DNA of 35,825 bases. Source: a virus. Below, one piece after another: positions 17,297 through 35,825 of the stretch. Made by a program: the position numbers and the translations under genes. The notes beneath the pieces are model-generated. The model did not search any database. It was not told the origin of the DNA and saw only the letters and a program-made list of their open reading frames with translations. Every line of letters begins with the position of its first letter. The first letter of the stretch is position 1. The stretch is from positions 1 to 35,825 of the IMG/VR virus record IMGVR_UViG_3300050033_000122. One strand, given 5' to 3'.

Positions 17297-18352
17297 TTAC
17301 GCTGTGAAGTACGCCGAAATGTCGATGACGAAGTCGGCGGTCGTGCCGTCGCCCATGACCAGGGCGAGCGTGCCGTCAGTGTTCAGGGCGGATGTGAAGC
17401 CGTTAGCCAGATCCACGCCTGAGACGAAGTCGATCGTTGACGAGGTTGGGTTGGGGGTCTGGGCAGGCCCAACAGTGGCGTTGCCCTTCGTTGCGGCGTT
17501 GGTCACGGTCAGGTTGCCGGCCACGATCGTGGCATTGGCTGGGATGCCGCCTCTTCCTGCAATCTGCACGCTGCGCGGGATGTGGGCGCTGAACTTGCCC
17601 GAGAGGCCGTTCCCTGAGCGGGTGTCCAGCAGGCGGACAGGCGAAATGGCGGTGATATTCACGGCAGTCCTCGATGTGGTGACAGGGGCGGGCGGGATGG
17701 GCGCGGGGGTTGGGATCGTATCGACGGCCTTCCACACCTCGCCGACGGCATTGAGCATCGACCAGGGCAGGTAGCAATCGCCGCCGTTGCCCCACTTGGT
17801 GCCCCAGGAGTTGCGCAGGCGCAGGCCCTTCGAGTCCCAACCGAAAGCGAGGATGGCGTGACCGCCGGCCGGATAGTCTTCGGCGGGCAGGACGCCGCCA
17901 ATGGGTGTGAACCAGGAGTGGTACCAAGTCACGCTGAGCACGACCGGACCGAAGGCCATGATTGCGGCTTGGATCTCGGCCTGGATCACTCGCACCGCGT
18001 AGTAGCTGCCGATCATGTGATTTGCTTCGTCCGGCGGGTAGCCGACTTTGAGCAGCTGGTCAAAGGCGTTGCGGGTGATGGCGCCGTTGGGGCCGCCGCC
18101 GATCCTCTTGAAGAACGTGCCTGCATCGAGCGGCCACATGCCGTCCTGGCAGAGCTTCATGGCGCCCGAGGAATAGGCCACACACTGAGGCGTCGTGCCC
18201 TGATTGAGCGGGGCGTATGTCTCGTTCGGAGCGTAGTAGACCGCCGGGATGACGATGGCCTTCTCTTGCCCGGTCAGCGCATAGAGCTGCTCGATTGGGA
18301 AGTCTCGATCATCGGGCGGAGAGGGGAGGGCGCCCAGGCCGTGGTCGGTCAC
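17297..18352 (-). CDS. Papain-like (C1-type) cysteine peptidase, probable lysin
   Basis: 351 residues from GTG 18352 (GTGA overlap). The catalytic domain has Cys57 in TTPQCVAYSSGAMK, His165 in PAGGHAILAFGWD and Asn181 in RNSWGTKWGNGG, the complete papain-fold triad. A Pro-rich linker (about 214-225) leads to a C-terminal domain (235-351) that begins SPVRLLDTRSGNGL and contains IPANATIVAGNLTV and ends in FVIDISAYFTA. This beta domain is common on secreted proteins of Actinobacteria and Chloroflexi and probably binds the cell wall. No signal peptide is seen, so release would need the holin. A virion-associated or host-defence protease is the alternative. Confidence 0.8.
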   Translation of the reverse strand: MTDHGLGALPSPPDDRDFPIEQLYALTGQEKAIVIPAVYYAPNETYAPLNQGTTPQCVAYSSGAMKLCQDGMWPLDAGTFFKRIGGGPNGAITRNAFDQLLKVGYPPDEANHMIGSYYAVRVIQAEIQAAIMAFGPVVLSVTWYHSWFTPIGGVLPAEDYPAGGHAILAFGWDSKGLRLRNSWGTKWGNGGDCYLPWSMLNAVGEVWKAVDTIPTPAPIPPAPVTTSRTAVNITAISPVRLLDTRSGNGLSGKFSAHIPRSVQIAGRGGIPANATIVAGNLTVTNAATKGNATVGPAQTPNPTSSTIDFVSGVDLANGFTSALNTDGTLALVMGDGTTADFVIDISAYFTA

Positions 18353-18777
18353 GGCAGCCGCTCCATTCGCGTCGGCTGCTCGCCCTGTTCGCTCCGAGCG
18401 ATCGCCTCTTCTTGCAGTCCCGCGATCGCTTCGTATTCCTCGATCGTGTGGTGGTCTAGGCACGGGGCCATCGCATCGGCGAGCCCATCGACGGTGTGGT
18501 GGTCGTAGTCATCAGGGATGCGATGGTCACAGTAGTCAGGCCCAAAGGTGTAGGTCTGGTCGCCTTGGCCGCCCGTGTAACTCTCGCCCCAGCCGTCCGT
18601 CTCTTTGCCGTAGTTGGCCCACGGCTTGCCCGCGAGGCCGCCGGCCGTCAGAGCCGGATCGAAGGGGACGCTCAGGGCGTCGCGCATCTCGTCGGCTTGC
18701 CGGGAGTGGTGGGCAATGACCAGCAGCCAGCCCAGCGAGGCGACGAGCCAGAGGGTGATTCCGAGCAAGAGGATCAC
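18349..18777 (-). CDS. N-terminally anchored small protein of the lysis block
   Basis: 142 residues from GTG 18777 (GTGA overlap). Residues 1-22 (ILLLGITLWLVASLGWLLVI) form one membrane segment. The rest is hydrophilic, acidic and rich in Asp, His and Tyr (PDYCDHRIPDDYDHHTVDG), ending in a charged helix. Coupled on both sides to other membrane proteins. Function unknown; a lysis regulator is possible. Confidence 0.65.
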   Translation of the reverse strand: MILLLGITLWLVASLGWLLVIAHHSRQADEMRDALSVPFDPALTAGGLAGKPWANYGKETDGWGESYTGGQGDQTYTFGPDYCDHRIPDDYDHHTVDGLADAMAPCLDHHTIEEYEAIAGLQEEAIARSEQGEQPTRMERLP

Positions 18778-19521: not shown

Positions 19522-19603
19522 CCCCGAAACCGGGATTTGAACCCGGGACCTCCCGCGCCGCCAAATGGACGGGGCGGGCGCTCTGCCGCTGAGCTATTTC
19601 GGT
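19522..19603 (-). tRNA. tRNA-like gene with expanded anticodon arm
   Basis: On the minus strand: acceptor ACCGAAA pairs with TTTCGGG except for an A-G mismatch at 1:72; D-arm GCTC/GAGC with a seven-base loop; T-arm CCGGG/CCCGG with loop TTCAAAT; variable loop of five. The anticodon stem CCCGC/GCGGG encloses 17 bases (19557-19573 on the plus strand) instead of seven. An inner pairing CCGCC/GGCGG leaves a ten-base loop holding U-CCA, which would read as anticodon CCA (Trp) if used. CCA is not encoded. The identity is unresolved and the gene may be degenerate or altered in function. Confidence 0.6.
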
Positions 19604-20103: not shown

Positions 20104-20131
20104 ATCGGTTCGAATCCGATATGCGGTACCA
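20104..20131 (+). other. attP: attP core: tRNA 3' end with T-arm, acceptor and CCA
   Basis: T-stem ATCGG/CCGAT with loop TTCGAAT (20104-20120), acceptor strand ATGCGGT (20121-20127), then A and CCA. No D-arm or 5' half exists upstream, so this is only the 3' end of a tRNA. Phages with tyrosine integrases carry such a piece to rebuild the host tRNA on integration. The host target should be a tRNA starting ACCGCAT. It is 0.37 kb from the integrase gene. Confidence 0.85.
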
Positions 20132-20235: not shown

Positions 20236-20502
20236 CTACTCGGATGGGCCGCGGGCGACGAGAGTCAGGGCCTTCGTCGCCTCGTCGTAACTCATGCCCA
20301 GCGAGCGGATGACGATGCTCATGGCCGCCAACTGCTCGGGCGACCAGCCCGATACCCGTTCTGCCTCGTGTTCGCGGAGAACCCGCAGGAGCCAGTCCAG
20401 CAGCTTCGGCATGAGCCGCCAGATCAGCCAGATTTCAGCCACCACGAGCGGCAACAGCAGTAGGTCGAGCCAGACCGGGATACCCAGTAGCTCTTGCGTC
20501 AT
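20236..20502 (-). CDS. Membrane-anchored small protein after integrase
   Basis: 88 residues from ATG 20502 (ATGA overlap with the integrase stop). Residues 8-43 (IPVWLDLLLLPLVVAEIWLI and following) hold one or two membrane segments; the rest is a charged helical domain (SPEQLAAMSIVIRSLGMSYDEA). It is the last gene of the early operon, next to attP. Such a place often carries superinfection-exclusion or prophage-expressed proteins, but there is no direct evidence. Confidence 0.7.
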   Translation of the reverse strand: MTQELLGIPVWLDLLLLPLVVAEIWLIWRLMPKLLDWLLRVLREHEAERVSGWSPEQLAAMSIVIRSLGMSYDEATKALTLVARGPSE

Positions 20503-21704
20503 GATGTCCTCCGTAGGGCGCTATCGACCATCGCCGCAGCATCGCGGGCAGAGGCAGGCAGAACGCTCGTGTAGTCCATGCTCTGGCCGATGGTCGAATG
20601 GCCGAGCAGGTCTTGCGCCACTCGCGGGTGGACGCCGCTACCAGCCAGGATTGTCGCGAATCCGTGACGGGTGTCATGCAATCGCATCATCGGGTAGCCC
20701 GCGGCTTTGAGCACCGCCCGCACTTGGTAGCTCACGGTCGCCGGCCACATCGTGCGACCTTCCGTGTCGGCGAATACCAACCCGTTCTCGCTCCACACTT
20801 TCGCGGCTCGGCGCTCTGCGATCTGGCGGGCCTGTTGGTCCCTCAGTGCCTCGACGGCGATGGCGGGGAGGGGTTCAAGACGTGTCTTGCCGTTCTTCGG
20901 GGCGACGAGCCGGGTATTTTGCGCGGCCTCGATTTCGAGGGCACTGCGAAAGGCGGGCGGGACGTAGCGCAGCGAGTGGTTGACGCTGACGGTTGCGGCC
21001 TCGAGGTCGACATCGGTCCAGCGCAGCCCCAGCAGTTCGCCACGGCGCATCCCTGTCGATAGGGCCAGGACCGCGAAGGCCGCCAGTCTGTGACCGCCAA
21101 AGGCCGCGAGGATGGCTCTGGCATCGGCGGGTGCGATGGTGGGAGCGGTGCGCGTCACGAATCGCGGCGGGCGGACGTAGCTCGCTTCGTTGCGCTCGGC
21201 TAGGCGATCCGCGACAGCGAGTTCGAGAACCGCCCGCAGACGGCCGAGACAGTACGCCCGACTGTGCGGCTTGCCCCACAACGGCATTGCGCCGCGGATG
21301 GCGGAGCCGTCGAGGTCGGCGAGTCTGACGGCCCCGATGGTCGGCCGCAGATGGGTGTCGATCGCGCCGCGGTATCGGGTGTACGTGGTGGCCCGTACAG
21401 CTGGCGGTCGGACGGTGTCGAGGTAACGATCCATCGCGTCGCCGACGGTCATCGTGAGGGCGTCCGGGTGGAGCCGGAGGCCCAGCAGGCGGCGGGCATC
21501 ATCGCGGCGTCTTTCCGCTTCGGCCTGGGTGACGCCGAAGAACGACTTCCGCCGGCGCTTGCCCGTCGAGTCCTTGCCCAACGAGAGTGTGCAACAGTAC
21601 TGGCGCTGCCGGACGTGATCGCGGCGTAGAAACGGCACCGATCCCTCGCCGTGCCGGCGCTTTTGCTTGCGGTGTTTTCCGCTGGGGTTTGACATTGATC
21701 GCAT
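20499..21704 (-). CDS. int: Tyrosine integrase
   Basis: 401 residues from ATG 21704; ATG 21695 is an alternative. The N-terminus has the AP2-like arm-binding layout (HGEGSVPFLRRD then SLGKDSTGKRRRKSFFG), followed by a core-binding helical domain (about 85-180). Catalytic residues are Arg220 (STGMRRGEL), Lys273 (NGKTRLEPLP), His343 and Arg346 (RLHDTRHGF), His369 (LLGHSTIG) and Tyr378 (SMDYTS). It recombines attP with a host tRNA. The start lies inside the excisionase-like gene by 206 bases, and the gene is near the end of the leftward early operon. Confidence 0.95.
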   Translation of the reverse strand: MRSMSNPSGKHRKQKRRHGEGSVPFLRRDHVRQRQYCCTLSLGKDSTGKRRRKSFFGVTQAEAERRRDDARRLLGLRLHPDALTMTVGDAMDRYLDTVRPPAVRATTYTRYRGAIDTHLRPTIGAVRLADLDGSAIRGAMPLWGKPHSRAYCLGRLRAVLELAVADRLAERNEASYVRPPRFVTRTAPTIAPADARAILAAFGGHRLAAFAVLALSTGMRRGELLGLRWTDVDLEAATVSVNHSLRYVPPAFRSALEIEAAQNTRLVAPKNGKTRLEPLPAIAVEALRDQQARQIAERRAAKVWSENGLVFADTEGRTMWPATVSYQVRAVLKAAGYPMMRLHDTRHGFATILAGSGVHPRVAQDLLGHSTIGQSMDYTSVLPASARDAAAMVDSALRRTS

Positions 21705-21879
21705 CGTAGCCCTCTCCGATCAGCGTGGCGAGGTCCACCCGTCGCACCCAGTACCGTCGCCCGTCGAGCATGGACGGCAACATGCCCCCACGGCACCAAC
21801 GGGTGACGCGGGACTCCGGCCAGCCCAACTCAGTCGCACACTCGGCGACGGAGAGCAGTGGACGGAGGGCGGTGGTCAT
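21499..21879 (-). CDS. xis: Excisionase-like MerR-type HTH protein
   Basis: 126 residues from ATG 21879 (ATGA overlap). Residues 8-58 (LLSVAECATELGWPESRVTR, then a W and GRRYWVRRVDLATL) form a winged helix of the excisionase/HTH_17 type. The remaining 65 residues are basic and Pro/Ala-rich and are encoded in DNA that also encodes the integrase N-terminus in another frame. Overlap of xis and int is known in lambda, but 206 bases is long. Expected role: directing excision and bending attachment DNA. Confidence 0.7.
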   Translation of the reverse strand: MTTALRPLLSVAECATELGWPESRVTRWCRGGMLPSMLDGRRYWVRRVDLATLIGEGYDAINVKPQRKTPQAKAPARRGIGAVSTPRSRPAAPVLLHTLVGQGLDGQAPAEVVLRRHPGRSGKTPR

Positions 21880-22199
21880 GGCAACAGGCGCTCGATCCAT
21901 GCCAATGCTTGCCCTGACTCGACCTGGGCGGTCGTGACACGCAAGACCTTCCAGCCGTGGCACATCGCCTCTGCATCGCGTTCGCGGTCGTCTGTGTACG
22001 CCTTGCCGCGGTTGTGGCCGCCGTTGACGAAGACGCCGCCATCGACTTCCACGATCAGCAGGCGGGCCGGCCAGCAGAAGTCAGCCTCCCATTTCCGGGA
22101 CGGATCGAAGCGGTATTGGCGCTGCGGCATCGGTAGGGGACGATTAGAGAGCGATTGGATGCGGAGTTGGCCGAGCAGTAGATCCTCGCCGTCGCTCAC
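21876..22199 (-). CDS. DUF559/Vsr-like PD-(D/E)XK protein
   Basis: 107 residues from GTG 22199 (GTGA overlap). RPLPMPQRQYRFDPSRKWEA, D40, then LLIVEVDGGVF (E51, D53), HNRGKAYTDDRERDAEA and GWKVLRVT is the full pattern of DUF559 proteins, related to the very short patch repair fold. A nicking or repair nuclease is likely. The more usual DUF559 proteins are host or IS-linked; here it is in the phage early operon beside xis. Confidence 0.8.
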   Translation of the reverse strand: MSDGEDLLLGQLRIQSLSNRPLPMPQRQYRFDPSRKWEADFCWPARLLIVEVDGGVFVNGGHNRGKAYTDDRERDAEAMCHGWKVLRVTTAQVESGQALAWIERLLP

Positions 22200-22456
22200 C
22201 AGTCGCCCCCGTTCCGCTCGCGGCCAAAGCCAACGTCGCCGTTCACCTGGCCGCAGTTGACGCATCGGGCTTGCCAGTTCGGGCCGTAGTACGACGGCTC
22301 AACCGAGCCGGTCAGGGTCCATTCGATGTCCGAGCGGGTCCGGCAGGCGAAGCACCAGCGACCGGGCACGGTTTGGACCTTGAGTACCTTCGTGGGGCCG
22401 GACGTGCAGTACGAGCCGACACGCTGATTGCCTTCCACGATTGCGAAGCAGCTCAC
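22196..22456 (-). CDS. Small double zinc-finger protein
   Basis: 86 residues from GTG 22456 (GTGA overlap). WCFACRTRSDIEW and ARCVNCGQVNGD supply two CxxC pairs, forming a zinc ribbon; SVEPSYYGPNWQ lies between. No enzyme motif. Unknown role. Confidence 0.6.
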   Translation of the reverse strand: MSCFAIVEGNQRVGSYCTSGPTKVLKVQTVPGRWCFACRTRSDIEWTLTGSVEPSYYGPNWQARCVNCGQVNGDVGFGRERNGGDW

Positions 22457-22995: not shown

Positions 22996-23385
22996 TCATG
23001 CCTCCTTGGGCTTAGAGGTGGAGGGAGCGGCGGAATGGAAAATGTCGCTGTCGGTCAAGTGGCGAGCGCCCTCGACGGGGTACGTCGTGAGGTGCCACAC
23101 GTCGCGCTCAACCTCCGGCACGCAGGGCGTCTCCTCGTGGTTGTCGCAGTAGCAGGCGTCGGTATCCTCCTCACGAACGTAGTCGCAGTCGTGATCCATC
23201 GGGCAGTCTTTGAGCCATTGCGTTGTCCGGCCGACGAGCCACATCTGGCCCGCGTTGCCGTCGTCGCTTTCGTCAAGGGCTTCCGCCGCGAACCAGACCA
23301 TTCCGGCCGCCTCAATGGGGTCAGGCGTCTTCTCGGCATCCACCCAGTAGTCGCCGTCCTCGTTCAGCCAATACGGCACTTTCAT
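22996..23385 (-). CDS. Unknown acidic protein with Cys/His cluster
   Basis: 129 residues from ATG 23385 (ATGA overlap). Very acidic (DEDGDYW, ALDESDDGN, REEDTDACYCDNHEETPC). The stretch CPMDHDCDY to CYCDNHEETPC may hold metal. Not recognised. Confidence 0.6.
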   Translation of the reverse strand: MKVPYWLNEDGDYWVDAEKTPDPIEAAGMVWFAAEALDESDDGNAGQMWLVGRTTQWLKDCPMDHDCDYVREEDTDACYCDNHEETPCVPEVERDVWHLTTYPVEGARHLTDSDIFHSAAPSTSKPKEA

Positions 23386-23948
23386 TCGGGCTCACCGGCT
23401 TTCGGGGTGGGGGACCGAGGTTTGCCACACTTGGCACAACACCAGTACTCGAATTGGCCCCCACCTGTATCGCCCAAGATGTAATCGTGGTTGCACGTCG
23501 GGGTGGAGGAGAGAGCCGCCTGTCTTGCCGCGTGGCTGATTTTCCAGCCGCGTTTCAGGGTGTGCTGACAGGTGCGGCAGCGGCGCGATCCGTCTGAGCA
23601 GAAGCCCACGTTCTCGGGCGTGAACTCATGGCCGTGGAGACAGTGCGTCTTGCGAGCATTCGCAGCCGGGATGGTGTCGCCGCGCATGATGTTCTCGCGG
23701 TTGGTCACCGGCTCTAGGTGCGCCGGGTTACAGCAGGCATGGTTGCGGCAGAGATGGTCCAGCGTTAGGCCCTCTGGAATGGGGCCGACGAGCAGTTCGT
23801 AAGCGATCCGGTGAGCGGCCCGGCGATGGATGCCGACATAGAGCCGACCGTACCCATTGCTATTCAGGTTGCCGCGCCAAGGCCAGCATCCAGCCCGTTC
23901 GTCCGTCTGTCCCACCTTCGCCCAAAATCGCTCTCTAACGGTTCTCAT
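23382..23948 (-). CDS. HNH homing endonuclease with extra zinc ribbon
   Basis: 188 residues from ATG 23948 (ATGA overlap). It shows the pattern shared by four HNH proteins here: RFWAKV, CWPWRGNLNSNGYGRL, AHRIAYELLVGPIPEGL, then DHLCRNHACCNPAHLEPVT and RENIMRG, followed by a CLHGHEF/CRTC zinc knuckle. The last 40 residues (CNHDYILGDTGGGQFEYW, then CCAKCGK) form an extra zinc ribbon not present in the other copies, possibly a separate small protein fused by the insertion. Confidence 0.9.
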   Translation of the reverse strand: MRTVRERFWAKVGQTDERAGCWPWRGNLNSNGYGRLYVGIHRRAAHRIAYELLVGPIPEGLTLDHLCRNHACCNPAHLEPVTNRENIMRGDTIPAANARKTHCLHGHEFTPENVGFCSDGSRRCRTCQHTLKRGWKISHAARQAALSSTPTCNHDYILGDTGGGQFEYWCCAKCGKPRSPTPKAGEPE

Positions 23949-24445
23949 TCGTCGCCTCTGTCTTGGCGGAGGAGGGCTCGCACGTCGCCAATGAGCGTGC
24001 AGGTCGGCGAGTGCTGCCAGCCCTCGTGGGGTGCGTCTTCGCTGATACACCAGCACGGCATACCGCCAATGGTCCGAACGGCGATGAACCCAAGGGCGGC
24101 AGAGAGTGGACGCAGCCTCTCTCGCTCCGCTTCGACCGCTTTGGCAATGAGGGCGGCATCCCTCGCCTTGGCGGCGGGGGTTAGGTTGGCGAGGAGGGCG
24201 TCGAAGGATTGCATGGCCTCTGAGAATGCCCAATCGTCGCTCTCGCAGTAGTGGAAGTGATCGTCAGCCGCCTCGGAGAACTGGCGACCCGCCTCGACTA
24301 GCGCGGCCTTCTCAGACTCGGCGGCTGTGAGGGCGGCCAGGGCACGAGCGGCGTCGCAGGGGAAGTCCTGTTGGCAGTAGCGACAAACGGGGTCCTCGTG
24401 GACGCAGGATTGGTGCCGCTCCAGGTCGGCGTGTAGGTCATTCAC
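23945..24445 (-). CDS. Paralogous zinc-finger/helical protein B
   Basis: 166 residues from GTG 24445, overlapping the previous stop by eight bases. DLHADLERH, then CRYCQQDFPCDAARALAALT and a long acidic helical region, then a C-terminal section with PCWCISEDAPHEGWQHSPTC. Its middle 64 residues are identical to those of protein A (25058-25417) because of a 192-bp DNA duplication. Cysteines near the N-terminus may bind zinc. Unknown function. Confidence 0.65.
   Translation of the reverse strand: MNDLHADLERHQSCVHEDPVCRYCQQDFPCDAARALAALTAAESEKAALVEAGRQFSEAADDHFHYCESDDWAFSEAMQSFDALLANLTPAAKARDAALIAKAVEAERERLRPLSAALGFIAVRTIGGMPCWCISEDAPHEGWQHSPTCTLIGDVRALLRQDRGDE
24170..24361. repeat. 192-bp perfect direct repeat, left copy
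   Basis: Identical base for base to 25127-25318, offset 957. It encodes the same 64 residues in proteins A and B. Flanking sequence diverges sharply at both ends, so it looks like recent duplication or gene conversion. Confidence 0.95.
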
Positions 24446-25061
24446 GGTTGGCTCCTGTGTTGGGGAACAGCCCCCGCAGCCGATCCGCTTGCCATTGACG
24501 CTCGGCGGAGGCGGCGGCGTTGGCGGAGGCGTAGTTGGCGGCGGCGGCGGCGTAGGCGGAGGCGTAGTTGGCGTTGGCGGAGGCGTAGGCGGCGGCGTCG
24601 GCGGCGGCGTAGGCGGCGTAGGCGGAGGCGTAGGCGGCGGCGTCGGCGGCGGCGTAGGCGGCGTAGGCGGCGGCGTCGGCGGCGGCGTAGGCGGCGTAGG
24701 CGGAGGCGTAGGCGGCGGCGTCGGCGGCGGCGTAGGCGGCGGCGGTCCGCGTCTCCGGGCTAGGGCACGTCACCCATGCGCGGGCGACTTCGATGGCGAG
24801 CCGGGGTCGCCTATCGTCGGGGTAGCGGGCCTCAAACTCCGGCAGAACACGCTCGGCGCAATCGGCGGCGAACGTCACGAGCAGGAACTGGTCGAGTTCG
24901 ATCTCGTAAGCCTCTGCGAGCCACAGCCACCAGTCACCACGTTCGAGCTTGGCGAAGGCCTCGGCCAGCGAGGCGATGTTGTTTTCCAGCGCCCACTGGT
25001 AGCCGGGGGAGCAGGGTTGGTGGGTGCGTAGGTCTGCGAGCCAGGTATTTGTGTCGATCAT
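24438..25061 (-). CDS. Imm_5-like protein with Ala/Tyr repeat tail
   Basis: 207 residues from ATG 25061 (ATGA overlap). Residues 15-110 (WALENNIASLAEAFAKLERG, DWWLWLAEAYEIELDQFLLV, FAADCAERVLPEFEARYPDD, RPRLAIEVARAWV) resemble putative immunity proteins of the Imm_5-like group, which also end in Ala-rich helical repeats. Residues 115-190 are almost only Ala, Tyr, Asp, Ser and Asn in units such as AAYAAADAAAYASAY. Those proteins are often predicted from toxin loci but their role in phages is not known. It sits between the two duplicated paralogs. Recognition is from memory and moderate. Confidence 0.65.
   Translation of the reverse strand: MIDTNTWLADLRTHQPCSPGYQWALENNIASLAEAFAKLERGDWWLWLAEAYEIELDQFLLVTFAADCAERVLPEFEARYPDDRRPRLAIEVARAWVTCPSPETRTAAAYAAADAAAYASAYAAYAAADAAAYAAYAAADAAAYASAYAAYAAADAAAYASANANYASAYAAAAANYASANAAASAERQWQADRLRGLFPNTGANRE
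24515..24747. repeat. GCG/TAG-type minisatellite encoding the Ala/Tyr repeat
   Basis: Repeated GGCGGCGTAGGCGGAGGCG-type units, with a larger unit of about 45 bases repeated several times. It encodes the repeat tail on the minus strand. The plus strand gives a spurious Gly/Val-rich open frame. Copy number could change by slippage in multiples of three without breaking the frame. Confidence 0.9.
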
Positions 25062-25417
25062 GACTTCCTCTCTTTGGCGGTCCGCATCGCGGCAAGGAGC
25101 ACATCGAGAACGTGATCGCGCTCCCAGGCGGCGGGGGTTAGGTTGGCGAGGAGGGCGTCGAAGGATTGCATGGCCTCTGAGAATGCCCAATCGTCGCTCT
25201 CGCAGTAGTGGAAGTGATCGTCAGCCGCCTCGGAGAACTGGCGACCCGCCTCGACTAGCGCGGCCTTCTCAGACTCGGCGGCTGTGAGGGCGGCCAGGGC
25301 ACGAGCGGCGTCGCAGGGCCAGTCGCCCCCGCAGATTGCGCATGGATGGGCGACGTAGGTGCCGCAGCCGATATCCTCGACGCGGTGCCGCTCCAGGTCG
25401 CGGTGGAGGTCATCCAC
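25058..25417 (-). CDS. Paralogous zinc-finger/helical protein A
   Basis: 119 residues from GTG 25417, overlapping the previous stop by eight bases just as protein B does. DLHRDLERH, HPCAICGGDWPCDAARAL, then the shared acidic helices (AALVEAGRQFSEAADDHFHY) and a short basic end (MRTAKERKS). Unknown function; see protein B. Confidence 0.65.
   Translation of the reverse strand: MDDLHRDLERHRVEDIGCGTYVAHPCAICGGDWPCDAARALAALTAAESEKAALVEAGRQFSEAADDHFHYCESDDWAFSEAMQSFDALLANLTPAAWERDHVLDVLLAAMRTAKERKS
25127..25318. repeat. 192-bp perfect direct repeat, right copy
   Basis: Identical to 24170-24361. See the left copy. Confidence 0.95.
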
Positions 25418-26767: not shown

Positions 26768-27636
26768 GCGTCACCCCGGGGTTTGGCGCCCGGCAGTCCG
26801 ATGTTGGCGACCTGGCCGCGCATGGCCTGGTATGCCGTTTCTCGGCGCTCCCGTTCCTCGGCCGTTTCCTCAGGGCGGGGTTGAAAGTGGACCGGGGCCC
26901 GCTTAGCGGCGTTTCGGTCGCGTTCGGCACCGGCCTCGTCCTTTTCGGACTTGCGAACCCAAAGGATCAACAGGCCCTTAGCCCGAGACAGGAGTTTGCC
27001 GCGGCCTTCCTTGCCCGCCTCACCGATGGCTCTGGCCGTCCACTCCTGGCCAAACTCTGCGGCCAGCTCGTCAAGGAAGCAGAGAGCGTCACGGGATGGG
27101 CTGACGTAGAACCGCTGGTAGGCGTCTAGCGCCGGTTCACATTCCAGCGATGGGGGGGCGTCAACTGGCGGGGCGGGCGGGTCTGACTGACTGACTGACT
27201 GACTGACTGACGGTATCGCCACGGTAGCCGCGTGGTTACCGCGCGGTTCTTGCGCGGTAGGTGCGCTGTTATTCGTGCTTGTTTCGGCCTTCTTGTCGTT
27301 GGCTCGCTTCCATCGGTCGCGCGTGTTTTTGCGACGTTTTTGGGCCGGCCCGAACCATCCGGTCCAGGTTTTCGCGGGGATTTGGCCCTTCTCGTCAAGC
27401 AATTCAGCGGCAACCATCGCCGCGATGGCGGCTTCGTCGTAGGGCAGGATCACAGGCCAGGCGTCGGTTATCAGGCATCGCCGGCCGGCCTTCCAGGACT
27501 CCCCAAGGATCGCCACGTAGGCCAGGAAGCCCGCCACGACATGCTCCGGGTTCTGCCTGTGGAGGCGTCGGAACTTCGGGTCGTTGACGATATCCGTGGA
27601 CACGTCCATGACCGCGAAGCCATCATCTCGGCTCAC
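26764..27636 (-). CDS. Replication initiator / DnaD-like protein
   Basis: 290 residues from GTG 27636 (GTGA overlap). The N-terminus (MDVSTDIVNDPKFRRLHRQN and following helices) resembles the winged-helix N-domain of phage replisome organisers. A basic region (KRRKNTRDRWKRANDKKAE) leads to a low-complexity linker with a tandem SVSQSVSQ, then a C-terminal helical domain (YVSPSRDALCFLDELAAEFG, ARAIGEAGKEGRG). Probably binds the replication origin and recruits host helicase. The linker DNA contains a seven-copy tetranucleotide repeat. No helicase or polymerase gene was seen, so host enzymes must be used. Confidence 0.65.
   Translation of the reverse strand: MSRDDGFAVMDVSTDIVNDPKFRRLHRQNPEHVVAGFLAYVAILGESWKAGRRCLITDAWPVILPYDEAAIAAMVAAELLDEKGQIPAKTWTGWFGPAQKRRKNTRDRWKRANDKKAETSTNNSAPTAQEPRGNHAATVAIPSVSQSVSQSDPPAPPVDAPPSLECEPALDAYQRFYVSPSRDALCFLDELAAEFGQEWTARAIGEAGKEGRGKLLSRAKGLLILWVRKSEKDEAGAERDRNAAKRAPVHFQPRPEETAEERERRETAYQAMRGQVANIGLPGAKPRGDA
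27183..27211. repeat. Tetranucleotide repeat (CTGA)7 in the replication gene
   Basis: Seven full CTGA units plus one base inside the coding sequence. Gain or loss of one unit shifts the frame and would remove the C-terminal domain of the replication protein. The repeat encodes the SVSQSVSQ linker. Confidence 0.95.
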
Positions 27637-28325
27637 GATGCTGACTCACGGCGAACACGTCGGTCGTGCTCGCAGACCCGGCATAGGTTCCAGCCCCGCG
27701 AAACACGAACGTTCTCTGGCGTCTTAGGATGCCCCTTGGGGCATAGGTTGGTGTGGGTCCCGTAGCTGTGTTGTCTGACGCCTTGGGCGACCCTTCGCGC
27801 TCGTCGAGCCTCGGCTATTACCCGAGGCTCAGGCAGCACCTCACCCGACCTGTACGTTTCTCCGCGCACGATCTTGCTGACTGAGACCTGCGAGACGTGG
27901 TACCGCTCCGCCAACTGGACCTGCGTATCGCCTGCGAAGTACTCAGTCCGGATCGCTCCGACCCTCGCGGACAGTTTTCCGTGCGGTCTATATGGCTGAG
28001 GGGGATGGACGCCTGGGCGCCAGCGACCCTTCGCCATCATGTCGTCCGCGTTCTCTTGGACAGTCCCAGCCCAGAGGTGCGCAGGGTTCACGCATGGCGG
28101 GTTATCGCAGGTGTGGCACGCAAAGAGTCCAGGCGGGATCGGTCCGAAGTGGATCAGGTAAGAGAACCGGTGGGCGCCAATGGCGGCCTGTCGGCCCTTA
28201 GTGTGCGTAGCCATCCGGCCATAGCCTTTGGCCGCCCGAGCACCGGTCCATTCCCAGCAGTCGTCGGGTCCACGCCGGTCAACCTTTGACCAGAATCTAT
28301 CTAGGAAATCGGGTTGCTGCTTCAC
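27633..28325 (-). CDS. HNH homing endonuclease with HTH
   Basis: 230 residues from GTG 28325 (GTGA overlap). FLDRFWSKVDRRGPDDCWEW, GYGRMATHTKG, AHRFSYLIHFGPIPPGLFAC and HTCDNPPCVNPAHLWAGT form the HNH core. Residues 120-160 (AIRTEYFAGDTQVQLAERYH, VSQVSVSKIVRG) are a helix-turn-helix like NUMOD/IENR domains. A CPKGH/CRVC zinc knuckle closes it. It splits the early operon before the replication gene. Confidence 0.9.
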   Translation of the reverse strand: MKQQPDFLDRFWSKVDRRGPDDCWEWTGARAAKGYGRMATHTKGRQAAIGAHRFSYLIHFGPIPPGLFACHTCDNPPCVNPAHLWAGTVQENADDMMAKGRWRPGVHPPQPYRPHGKLSARVGAIRTEYFAGDTQVQLAERYHVSQVSVSKIVRGETYRSGEVLPEPRVIAEARRARRVAQGVRQHSYGTHTNLCPKGHPKTPENVRVSRGWNLCRVCEHDRRVRRESAS

Positions 28326-30040: not shown

Positions 30041-30110
30041 CTTCGGAGTCCTCCACTCGGGCCGGTGCCATTCGGCAGCGCCCGCCGAACAAGGGGTTGA
30101 ATTCGCTCAT
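30030..30110 (-). pseudogene. Remnant 3' end of the Cas4-like nuclease gene
   Basis: A 26-residue frame from ATG 30110 (ATGA overlap with the HNH stop) to TGA 30030. It reads FNPLFGGRCRMAPARVED, matching the nuclease C-terminus YHPMFGGKCRMAPLKVED, including the last cluster Cys. The DNA is clearly homologous but diverged. The two copies lie on either side of the HNH gene, so this is what remains of the nuclease 3' end after the HNH gene and a replacement end were inserted. It might still be translated. Confidence 0.8.
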
Positions 30111-30544
30111 GCGAGCGCCGCCATCCGGCGCCGGTTCACGTCGTCGGCGTGGCATCGACGGCACGCTCTATTGCCCGCCGTAATGCGGGTGTTTTCGGCA
30201 GTCCACAGGTGCCCCCTACGACACGCCGTTTCTGTGCCGTACTTCCTCATCCACCCACGCCGAATGTTCTCGGCGTTGGTGACGGGTTCCAGGTGCGACG
30301 GGTTGACGCACCAGCGGTTGTTGCACAGGTGATCGATCTTCATACCGGTTGGGACTGCGCCGACGAATAGTTCGTATGCGACTCGATGGGCCTTCATGCC
30401 ATAGACGCGGCCGCGGATGCTGCTCGTCAATTGGCCGTAGCCCCAGCCAGATAGCGAGCCCCGCCATCGCCAGCAGCCTTGTTGGTTCGCGCCCTTCTCC
30501 ACCTTCTCGGAGAACTTGACAGTGAGCGGTCGACTACTCGGCAT
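30107..30544 (-). CDS. HNH homing endonuclease inserted at the nuclease 3' end
   Basis: 145 residues from ATG 30544, overlapping the nuclease end by 11 bases; GAGGA lies just upstream. CWRWRGSLSGWGYGQL, AHRVAYELFVGAVPTGMKI and DHLCNNRWCVNPSHLEPVT with AENIRRG form the HNH core; the zinc knuckle CRRGH/CRRC closes it. Closely related to the HNH proteins at 23382 and 33998. Confidence 0.9.
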   Translation of the reverse strand: MPSSRPLTVKFSEKVEKGANQQGCWRWRGSLSGWGYGQLTSSIRGRVYGMKAHRVAYELFVGAVPTGMKIDHLCNNRWCVNPSHLEPVTNAENIRRGWMRKYGTETACRRGHLWTAENTRITAGNRACRRCHADDVNRRRMAALA

Positions 30545-31448
30545 CGCCGTCCTCAACTTTCAGCGGGGCCATTCGACACTTGCCCCCAAACATCGGGTGG
30601 TACTCGCAGTCCAAACAGATCGAGGCGTTGACCGGCCCGGACGGGAACGAGTAGTTCTCCGGTTCCAGCCCGCGTTCGATGCGGTGTCGGTTCAACATGT
30701 CGTCAGCCTTATTCGCCCGGACGTAGGCCGATACGACCTCATACGTCCAGCGTCGGAACTCGTCATCGATGTAGGTGCAGGGGATGGGGTGCCCTACCGG
30801 GACCATCTGGCCTTTACGCGGGCCGGACTTCAACTCGCGCTCGCCAAGAGCATCGGGTCCGAACCCCTGCCAGTACTGGCCGTCGCGCACCCACACGAGG
30901 TAGCCGAATTCGGGGACCGGCTGGCCGGTGTCCTCTTCGACCATGAGCGCATATATCCCACCCTCAACCGTGCGAGCCGTTTGCTTCGGGTGCGCGGCGG
31001 TCTTCACATCGTCAACGGCGTTGCTGGCGAAGATCAGATCGGGGTGGCCGTCGACCTCGCCCCAATCGAACAGGGGCACGCGAATATGAGCCTGGGTCCG
31101 GCAGAAGGCCCAATCAAAGTGCGGCATGACCTCGGACGCGAAACGTCGGGTAGCCGTCTCGACTTCGGCTTGGTCGACCTCGATACCGTCGCGCTCTTGG
31201 ACTTCCAGTGACGCCGCGAGAGCAACGTCGAAGTCCAGTTCGATGCCGGCGCGCGCACACTTCACGAGGATTTCCACGGCCGCGTCCACGCACGAGCCGA
31301 ACGTGACTTTCGGTTTGCCAATGAACGGCATCGGGAAGTACTTGCGCTGGAACGCCTTCTGTCCGCATATCGCAAAAGTCGTCAGCGCGCTCTTACTCAG
31401 GCCCTTGCGGTTGCTCAGATCCTCGCGGACGAAAGCCGGGGCGGTCAC
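30534..31448 (-). CDS. Cas4/RecB-like PD-(D/E)XK exonuclease with probable Fe-S cluster
   Basis: 304 residues from GTG 31448 (GTGA overlap). GLSKSALTTFAICGQKAFQR carries Cys28; the nuclease core is EVDGHPDLIF (D137) and AVDDVKTAAHPKQTA (D147, K149), then VEGGIYALMVEE. Cys278, Cys281 and Cys291 (ICLDCEYHPMFGGKC) complete the one-plus-three cysteine arrangement that holds a 4Fe-4S cluster in Cas4 and AddB. It probably processes DNA ends together with the annealing protein downstream. Its last 26 residues have a second, diverged copy beyond the HNH gene. Confidence 0.85.
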   Translation of the reverse strand: MTAPAFVREDLSNRKGLSKSALTTFAICGQKAFQRKYFPMPFIGKPKVTFGSCVDAAVEILVKCARAGIELDFDVALAASLEVQERDGIEVDQAEVETATRRFASEVMPHFDWAFCRTQAHIRVPLFDWGEVDGHPDLIFASNAVDDVKTAAHPKQTARTVEGGIYALMVEEDTGQPVPEFGYLVWVRDGQYWQGFGPDALGERELKSGPRKGQMVPVGHPIPCTYIDDEFRRWTYEVVSAYVRANKADDMLNRHRIERGLEPENYSFPSGPVNASICLDCEYHPMFGGKCRMAPLKVEDGDAE

Positions 31449-33843: not shown

Positions 33844-34001
33844 GCGACGGCCAGGTGAACGGCTACGTAGGCCGCCCCAGACAGCGCCAGAGCACCCGCC
33901 ACGCAGAGGGCAAGGCCAGAGGCGAGGATTAGCAGGCCCAGCGGTGTCAGAGGCAGCGTCAGCGCGAGGATCGCGCCAAGAGCCAATCCGATGCGCTTCA
34001 T
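33840..34001 (-). CDS. Two-span very small membrane protein
   Basis: 53 residues from ATG 34001 (ATGA overlap with the HNH stop), preferred over an upstream start. Almost wholly hydrophobic (IGLALGAILALTLPLTPLG, LLILASGLALCVAGALALSG). Function unknown. Confidence 0.65.
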   Translation of the reverse strand: MKRIGLALGAILALTLPLTPLGLLILASGLALCVAGALALSGAAYVAVHLAVA

Positions 34002-34648
34002 GCTGCGGCCGGCTTCCGGGTGTGGTAATAGCGCAGTGCGCGCGCGTTCCGACAAACTCGACAAGATCGGCCGGTCTTCGTGACGATGAGGTTATTTCCC
34101 TCGAACGGATGGCCGAGGCTGCATTGAGTCTTGCGGGCGTTCAGGGCGCCAGCGCCGACGCCCCGGAGGATGTTCTCGCGGCTGGTGACCGGCTCCAGGT
34201 GGGCCGGGTTGACGCAGGCGCGGTTGCGGCAGAGGTGGTCAAGGGTCAAGCCCTTCGGGATCAGCCCGTTGATCAGCCGATATGCCACCCGATGGGCATA
34301 GCCTTCACCGAATCTGTGGGCGGCCCCATAGCCGGTCGGGTACAGGCTCCCGCGCCAAAGCCAGCATGTCGCCGTCTTCTGAACCTTCGCCCAGAAACGT
34401 TCTTCTGCCCGGTGAGCCAGGAATGCGCAATGCATGGGGGCGGAATTGTGCTGGGGCTCGCCGGTTGTGAATCGTCCCCCGCAGAGGCGGCACTTCTTGC
34501 CTCGTTCGTGCGGCGATTCAACCCCCGAACGTCGGCAGGCGAACTCAACCCACTGGCGGGTGACCCCAAACGACCGGGCTGTGTCGGCTTCCCGATTGCC
34601 GTCACGGACGGACTCGATGATTGCCTGCGTTCGCGCGGATATGGTCAT
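33998..34648 (-). CDS. HNH homing endonuclease with N-terminal HTH
   Basis: 216 residues from ATG 34648 (ATGA overlap). Residues 5-45 (AIIESVRDGNREADTARSFG, VTRQWVEFACRRSG) are a DNA-binding HTH, followed by CRLCGGRF, CWLWRGSLYPTGYGAA, AHRVAYRLINGLIPKGLTL and DHLCRNRACVNPAHLEPVT, and a final CSLGH/CRVC knuckle. It lies directly after the operon's first gene. Confidence 0.9.
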   Translation of the reverse strand: MTISARTQAIIESVRDGNREADTARSFGVTRQWVEFACRRSGVESPHERGKKCRLCGGRFTTGEPQHNSAPMHCAFLAHRAEERFWAKVQKTATCWLWRGSLYPTGYGAAHRFGEGYAHRVAYRLINGLIPKGLTLDHLCRNRACVNPAHLEPVTSRENILRGVGAGALNARKTQCSLGHPFEGNNLIVTKTGRSCRVCRNARALRYYHTRKPAAA

Positions 34649-35438: not shown

Positions 35439-35825
35439 GAGAGAGGCTAGAGCGGCATTACCGCCACGACTACCTGTGACGGTCTGCCTCGTCGCGCCGC
35501 CCGCGCCATAGAACCCTACGACGGACGTAGCCCCGGCCAACTGGGTGTTGCCACCGGTAACGAGACCGCCCGTAACAGTAACGCCCCCGACGTTCAAGTA
35601 ACTGTCCAACGTGGCGTTTCCTCCCACGTGGAGGGTGCCCAGGTAGTTGCCATTCGACAACTGAAGTGGGCAGGTGACGGACGCGAGGCGGTAGTAGGTG
35701 GTGGCATTGTGCGCTGATATCTCCCATGCGATCACTTCCACACGGGCGTAGCGCGCGTTGAGTGGCACGACGCTAGTATCCGAGTCACTAGTCCAGATTG
35801 AGACGGTGTTGCCGTATACGTAGGC
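35388..35825 (-). CDS. Tail hub protein, C-terminal part (5' end off the right edge)
   Basis: The frame enters from the right edge and ends at TGA 35388. Positions 35692-35825 repeat 1-134, and frame phase matches the gene at 1-2063, so this is the end of the same 788-residue protein. The C-terminal part (ARYARVEVIAWEIS, then NYLGTLHVGGNATLDSYLNV and GGVTVTGGLVTGGNTQL) has repeated glycine-rich strands typical of trimeric fibre or collar sequence. Confidence 0.8.
   Translation of the reverse strand, partial: AYVYGNTVSIWTSDSDTSVVPLNARYARVEVIAWEISAHNATTYYRLASVTCPLQLSNGNYLGTLHVGGNATLDSYLNVGGVTVTGGLVTGGNTQLAGATSVVGFYGAGGATRQTVTGSRGGNAALASLLTALASNGLIVDSSTA
35692..35825. repeat. Terminal redundancy, right copy
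   Basis: Repeats bases 1-134 with one mismatch (A at 35818 against G at 127). See the left copy. Confidence 0.95.

Follow-up and report, generated by a model that had tools for sequence, protein, structure and literature searches.

The usual explanations for phage-encoded tRNAs are codon supply and the replacement of host tRNAs that have been cut by defence nucleases, and both of these require an anticodon. It has been found that phage tRNAs can rescue cells from tRNA-cleaving defences (PMC10264068, PMC11555353); such "defence-rescuing" tRNAs decode, have a 7-nt anticodon loop, and replace the cleaved host tRNAs. In the tRNA-dependent lysogeny of mycobacteriophages, which are temperate and use a tRNA attB, a host tRNA is disrupted at attB and a tRNA of the phage takes its place (PMC10865867). 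Non-decoding RNAs that mimic tRNA are represented in bacteria by the Y RNA YrlA, a partner of Ro60 whose own 5' and 3' ends form a basal stem (PMC8394870).

The gene analyzed here lies in IMGVR_UViG_3300050033_000122, a viral record of 35,825 nucleotides whose full length is referred to below as the window. Its product is very probably a conserved, structured, non-decoding tRNA-like RNA. Like the defence-rescuing tRNAs it is a phage-encoded tRNA fold with a possible counter-defence role, but since it cannot decode, it could act in this role only by titration. The window phage resembles the mycobacteriophages in being apparently temperate, in having a tRNA as its likely attB and in carrying a phage tRNA-like gene; unlike them, it has in its likely attP the 3' end of tRNA-Glu(CTC), by which that tRNA should be restored, and its tRNA-like gene is not a tRNA-Glu. 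The RNA shares with YrlA the mimicry of tRNA by a non-decoding molecule, but neither a basal stem formed by its ends nor an Ro60 partner was found for it. A sealed anticodon loop in a conserved phage tRNA fold serves neither of the usual roles of phage tRNAs, which suggests that it is the tRNA body that is put to use.

The tRNA-like gene and its predicted anticodon arm

The gene, which is the sole tRNA in the window, is called by ARAGORN on the minus strand at 19603-19522, the same bounds that the first-pass annotation had given, and the Rfam tRNA covariance model (RF00005), a check of the kind that the annotation had recommended, matches it with 52.5 bits (E 1.2e-8 for the window). Its parts are as follows.

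19522..19603, minus strand: tRNA-like RNA gene, 82 nt, from the acceptor to discriminator G73, CCA not encoded (ARAGORN, Rfam RF00005, and a syntenic counterpart in the related phage contig L057)
19597..19603, minus strand: 5' acceptor strand ACCGAAA, with A1 opposite G72 (sequence)
19580..19594, minus strand: D-arm GCTC-AGCGGCA-GAGC (Rfam match and arm parsing)
19552..19578, minus strand: extended anticodon arm, 27 nt, with an outer stem CCCGC/GCGGG (19578-19574 / 19556-19552) enclosing 17 nt; same length in L057
19558..19572, minus strand: predicted inner hairpin CCGTC[CATTT]GGCGG (folding; the alternative CCG-T-CC[ATTT]GG-C-GG is within 0.3 kcal/mol)
19530..19546, minus strand: T-arm CCGGG-TTCAAAT-CCCGG (Rfam match and arm parsing)
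19522..19529, minus strand: 3' acceptor strand TTTCGGG and G73 (sequence)

Read 5' to 3', the RNA is ACCGAAA TA GCTC AGCGGCA GAGC G CCCGC CCCGTCCATTTGGCGGC GCGGG AGGTC CCGGG TTCAAAT CCCGG TTTCGGG G, in which AGGTC is the V-loop. The class-I tertiary signature is present, with GG in the D-loop, TTC in the T-loop, and both the D-arm and the T-arm. The good acceptor, D- and T-arms that had been noted earlier hold up when their pairs are counted (6/7 in the acceptor, 4/4 in the D-stem, 5/5 in the T-stem), and the A-G mismatch that had been reported at 1:72 is in the sequence as A1.G72, which leaves the acceptor stem short of its full 7 bp. The other departure from an ordinary tRNA is in the anticodon loop, where 7 nt with U33 are replaced by 17 nt that are predicted to be closed.

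The first-pass annotation had described an open 17-base loop. The 5-bp stem CCCGC/GCGGG does enclose the 17 bases CCCGTCCATTTGGCGGC, but the open loop is disfavoured by about 10 kcal/mol: the full cloverleaf with the loop open has a computed energy of -27.3 kcal/mol, while the extended arm CCCGC-C-CCGTC[CATTT]GGCGG-C-GCGGG, with a C.C mismatch and the loop CATTT, reaches -37.6 kcal/mol. The variant with a bulged T and the loop ATTT, which is the window form nearest to L057, reaches -37.3 kcal/mol. In the predicted folding the 17 nt would thus form a second helix, making the whole arm one closed hairpin. The inner hairpin that had been suggested to expose CCA in a ten-base loop is not favoured, since its pairing, CCGCC/GGCGG, must break the anticodon stem (-27.0 kcal/mol). 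The window arm is marginally tighter than shuffled loops (p 0.056); a single GC-rich arm could fold in this way by luck, and the reality of the arm therefore rests on L057 and on the wider class described below.

Decoding can be evaluated by asking whether any standard anticodon loop is recoverable from the arm. ARAGORN labels the gene tRNA-Asp(GTC) by default and, in intron mode, tRNA-Arg(CCG) with a 10-nt insert, and the latter result is what would favour a tRNA that does decode, carrying either a short intron or an expanded-codon anticodon; U33 is absent before either anticodon, however, and when every single excision leaving 7 nt was tried in the window (10 nt removed) and in L057, none restored it. 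Excision across 60 loops of the class likewise gave U33 together with a purine at position 37 in 17 cases, compared to 15.0 +/- 3.2 for shuffled loops, which is not above chance. We know of no bacterial tRNA-splicing system for such inserts. The intron-containing tRNA was rejected as a candidate, given that no single excision to 7 nt yields a standard anticodon loop in either phage, and the decoding reading as a whole is very improbable. The "nonstandard decoder" of the first-pass annotation is disfavoured for the same reasons, namely an arm that is predicted closed and a U33 that excision does not recover in either phage, and the closed arm without U33 is what implies that the RNA cannot decode. 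A tmRNA is not called by ARAGORN, and the 82 nt hold no tag reading frame between tRNA-like halves.

Among the tRNAs of two Chloroflexota genomes, the host tRNA body closest to both phage RNAs is tRNA-Thr(CGU) (44/55 bases for the window RNA, counted outside the anticodon arm, and 42/55 for L057). This host tRNA (L369) has a 7-nt loop TTCGTAA, a G1-C72 pair and an encoded TCCA, and both phage RNAs are without all three. The G1-C72 pair is an identity pair of bacterial tRNA-Thr (PMC9976931); the window RNA lacks this pair and a Thr anticodon but keeps C2-G71 and G4-C69. Threonylation is unlikely because G1-C72 and the anticodon are both lost.

A counterpart in a related phage and a wider class

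Contig L057 (42.5 kb) has seven genes in common with the window, at about 39-79% identity, and it carries a tRNA-like sequence in the same gene interval, between the homologues of window 18349-18777 and of the DUF559 protein at 21876-22265. When 1 kb of each phage is aligned locally, only the tRNA-like sequence and a few preceding bases align, the flanks being unalignable. Random decay is unlikely when the RNA is kept at the same gene position while the flanking DNA fails to align, and the suggestion of a decaying gene in the first-pass annotation loses ground on this account and on that of the identical arm length. The conservation in relatives that had been proposed as a check is thereby found, in one related phage.

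The L057 RNA is TCCGAGG TA GCTC AGCGGCA GAGC G CCCGT CCGGCCTTTCGGCAAGG GCGGG AGGTC TCCGG TTCGAAT CCGGG GCTCGGG G, and outside the anticodon arm it is identical to the window RNA at 46/55 bases. The differences include two compensatory changes, at acceptor pair 6:67 (A-U in the window, G-C in L057, C-G in the host tRNA-Thr) and at T-stem pair 51:63 (G-C in the window, C-G in L057). A Watson-Crick pair at 1:72 is absent in both phages (A1.G72 in the window, T1.G72 in L057). The L057 arm also has 27 nt (5+17+5) and is predicted to be closed, at -38.1 compared to -25.0 kcal/mol for the open form, a gain of 13 kcal/mol; the inner hairpins align as CCG-T-CC-ATTT-GG-C in the window and CCG-G-CC-TTTC-GG-C in L057. 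As a comparison of two sequences, the arms are equal in length and show no clear compensatory pair inside the arm. The L057 RNA falls short of the Rfam cut-off and is mispaired (G.G) at 7:66, and a possibly coding ORF on the same strand (L057:4168-4785, minus strand) runs through it.

Other searches for relatives added no further counterpart of the gene: the DUF559 neighbour as a query returned L057 again and nothing else, five more distant Chloroflexota prophage loci contain no tRNA by ARAGORN, and the relatives found via the portal are short fragments ending before the tRNA-like site. BLAST of the tRNA-like region in phages, viral-contig searches with the integrase and with the lysin, and an exact tRNA pattern search all returned no matches.

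The arm was placed in a broader setting by means of a class pattern, which combines a D-arm and a T-arm of class I, separated by 5-16 extra nucleotides, and which covers one D-arm/T-arm type. It matches 110 viral contigs; judged from the base count, hardly any chance matches would be expected in a collection this large. In most matches the acceptor has 7 bp, the D-stem 4 bp and the T-stem 5 bp, and the two strands of the anticodon stem enclose 12-24 nt; a smaller number combine an ordinary 7-nt loop with a long variable arm. When the inner sequences of 62 distinct class arms were compared with shuffled loops, the real ones gave the tighter folds (combined p 1.6e-7), and many arms are capped by UUCG, GNRA, CUUG or GACG loops. 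The window RNA has the class-I body and the closed extended anticodon arm that define the class. In 400 Chloroflexota genomes the pattern was found 0 times, which is too little DNA for a claim of viral enrichment, and the open-access literature yielded no description of a phage tRNA-like class with a replaced anticodon arm. Seven contigs (L011, L021, L032, L037, L050, L095, L101) carry neighbouring pairs of tRNA-like sequences, both with anticodon loops that are not of 7 nt; the pair partner has a 9-nt loop beginning CGTAATG in L037 and L101, and GTAATG in L032.

Covariation between paired positions is seen in three families. Pairs changed on both sides number 7 in the family L034/L072/L096, 9 in the family L026/L028/L076/L087 and 7 in the phiC31 group; in all three families they span the whole structure, both anticodon-arm helices included, and these counts are reached by 0, at most 2/500, shuffles.

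The phiC31 group was reached by BLAST with contig L008, which leads to phiC31, phiBT1, Lilbooboo, Vash and Samora, and BLAST with contig L066 leads to AbbeyMikolon, Sebastisaurus and Euratis. In phiC31 the element (NC_001978.3:31424-31509, locus L355:1322-1407) lies unannotated between gp13 and gp14 and has a GNRA-capped extended anticodon arm. Like the window RNA, the elements of the phiC31 relatives (phiC31, phiBT1, Lilbooboo, Vash, Samora, Euratis, Sebastisaurus) have intact acceptor, D- and T-arms and an extended hairpin in place of the anticodon loop, and are structurally non-decoding; the phiC31 element differs from the window RNA in its body (34/55) and in its gene context, and no homologues of gp13-15 were found in the window. 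Five phages of the group share an identical or almost identical body, whereas their outer stem (CCGC/GCGG, CCAC/GTGG, CCCC/GGGG) and their inner stem, together with its cap (GAAA, GCAA, GTAA, TTCG), vary in step. In phiBT1 the unchanged body bears an arm that is short and different. The alignment of the group has one gap misplaced for L008. A decoding tRNA would show the reverse pattern, with a conserved anticodon loop. The Streptomyces phage AbbeyMikolon carries a "tRNA-OTHER" (41374-41462) which, like the window RNA, has a class-I body and about 22 nt replacing the 7-nt anticodon loop, but which differs from it in an encoded TCCA end, a full 7-bp acceptor and a position in a small tRNA cluster.

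There is close to an even chance that these elements form an unrecognised class, spread across several phage lineages including phiC31, in which the tRNA body is kept and a closed hairpin takes the place of the anticodon loop, the products being directed at host RNA enzymes, as decoys or as processing modules, and that the window RNA is its Chloroflexota-phage member. A sealed-arm class explains misleading annotations such as tRNA-Asp for the window gene, tRNA-Gly for the Lilbooboo counterpart and tRNA-OTHER for that of AbbeyMikolon. Since phiC31, a laboratory phage of long standing, has an unannotated element of this design, the function of the design is approachable by ordinary Streptomyces genetics.

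Possible functions of the RNA

The reading that we tentatively prefer, at somewhat less than an even chance, is that of a phage-encoded non-decoding tRNA mimic which acts through its body, most likely by occupying, as a decoy, a host protein involved in handling or attacking tRNA; among the four readings that the first-pass annotation had listed, a decoy would be the best single mechanism. The retained tRNA-Thr-like acceptor, D- and T-arms would give the RNA the elbow shape of tRNA, so that proteins recognising a tRNA by its body would see it. The second helix in place of the anticodon loop would preclude codon reading and would keep the RNA from serving anticodon-loop nucleases as a substrate in the ordinary manner, and without G1-C72 and an anticodon it would hardly be charged by ThrRS. 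The RNA would presumably be matured like a tRNA, and the mature form may titrate its target protein during infection. We infer the expression and maturation of the RNA, its target and its benefit to the phage.

The main rival to the decoy reading is that the gene is an RNA-processing or stabilising module ("tRNA punctuation"), in which RNase P at the 5' end and a 3' tRNA-end nuclease cut the phage transcript and so set mRNA ends and stability between the neighbouring genes; the body alone would matter, so that any closed hairpin would suffice as the anticodon arm. Placement is consistent with this in several phages: the element of the phiC31 relatives fills the gp13-gp14 gap on the same strand, those of L026, L038, L059, L087 and L096 lie 8-11 nt past one gene and 17-40 nt ahead of the next, one family sits between terminase and portal, and the window and L057 elements share their strand with the lysis and late genes. 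The gaps in the window are wide, however (about 180-210 nt downstream and at least 120 nt upstream), and co-orientation with both neighbours is not commoner than for ordinary isolated phage tRNAs (42/52 versus 46/53), on which ground co-directional operon placement was rejected as a hallmark of the class and was not counted in favour of a processing role. On balance a processing role is unlikely, though it retains an appreciable chance.

A decaying phage or host-derived tRNA-Thr, drifting after the loss of its anticodon loop and first pair, would account for the A1.G72 mismatch, the absence of CCA and U33, and the nearest host tRNA being tRNA-Thr(CGU), but it is improbable in view of the L057 counterpart, with its shared gene position, equal arm length and compensatory changes between unalignable flanks, and of the covarying anticodon arms in other phage families. 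The inserted arm might instead be the functional part, a protein-binding or antisense hairpin presented by a stable tRNA scaffold; the internal loop AACCCGGGA / GCAC kept by phiC31-type arms in several phages, and GACG-capped inner hairpins that recur in two families, would fit such an arm, while apical loops that vary freely among GNRA and UUCG types and differ between the window and L057, together with the swap of the whole arm on an unchanged body in phiBT1, make it more doubtful still. The least probable reading is a YrlA-like bacterial Y RNA tethering a Ro60/TROVE protein, to which the tRNA mimicry of YrlA (PMC8394870) and the encoding of a TROVE protein by one class record, L071, lend some colour: TROVE (PF05731) is absent from the window and was found in 1/31 records checked, and the ends of the window RNA form an acceptor stem rather than the basal stem of YrlA (PMC8394870). 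In L071 (record G012) the TROVE/Ro60 protein occurs together with a tRNA-like sequence whose GAGA-capped anticodon arm is very stable (-24.5 kcal/mol for the arm region), and this record is a possible link between the replaced-arm class and Y RNAs.

Genome context and host

The two ends of the window carry a 134-nt direct repeat, 99% identical (1-134 and 35692-35825), and the phage genome is therefore probably circular and complete in this record. The window encodes a portal, an HK97-type capsid protein, a terminase, a tape measure and a tyrosine integrase, and the closest annotated-phage matches of its terminase are phiC31-like Streptomyces phages, at about 28-30% identity. Three features bear on lysogeny and lysis.

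20499..21704, minus strand: tyrosine integrase (PF00589), adjoining the att site
20104..20131, plus strand: probable attP core, 28 bp identical to the 3' end of host tRNA-Glu(CTC)
17297..18463, minus strand: papain-like C1 peptidase, candidate lysin, downstream of the tRNA-like gene on the same strand

The stretch 20104-20131 is identical to the 28 bases that end the tRNA-Glu(CTC) gene in 38 genomes, all of them Chloroflexi MAGs. Since the integrase adjoins this match, it is likely to be the attP core, and the match places the host in the Chloroflexota. The tRNA-like gene was accordingly rejected as an integration remnant, the att core being the tRNA-Glu(CTC) sequence at 20104-20131 and not the tRNA-like gene. 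A tyrosine integrase is encoded in 3/31 class records checked, the window included.

Repeats occur elsewhere in the window. An array of 12- and 9-nt repeats at 24471-24786 lies inside an ORF (24438-25190, minus strand) and encodes an Ala/Asp/Tyr-rich repeat, and a 219-nt direct duplication, 95% identical, is found at 24149-24367 and 25106-25324, in neighbouring early genes. Four related ORFs resembling HNH endonucleases, all on the minus strand, lie at 23382-24233, 27633-28325, 30107-30556 and 33998-34648; their kinship was judged by eye and, for three of the ORFs, by shared DNA repeats, and they have relatives in L057 and L025.
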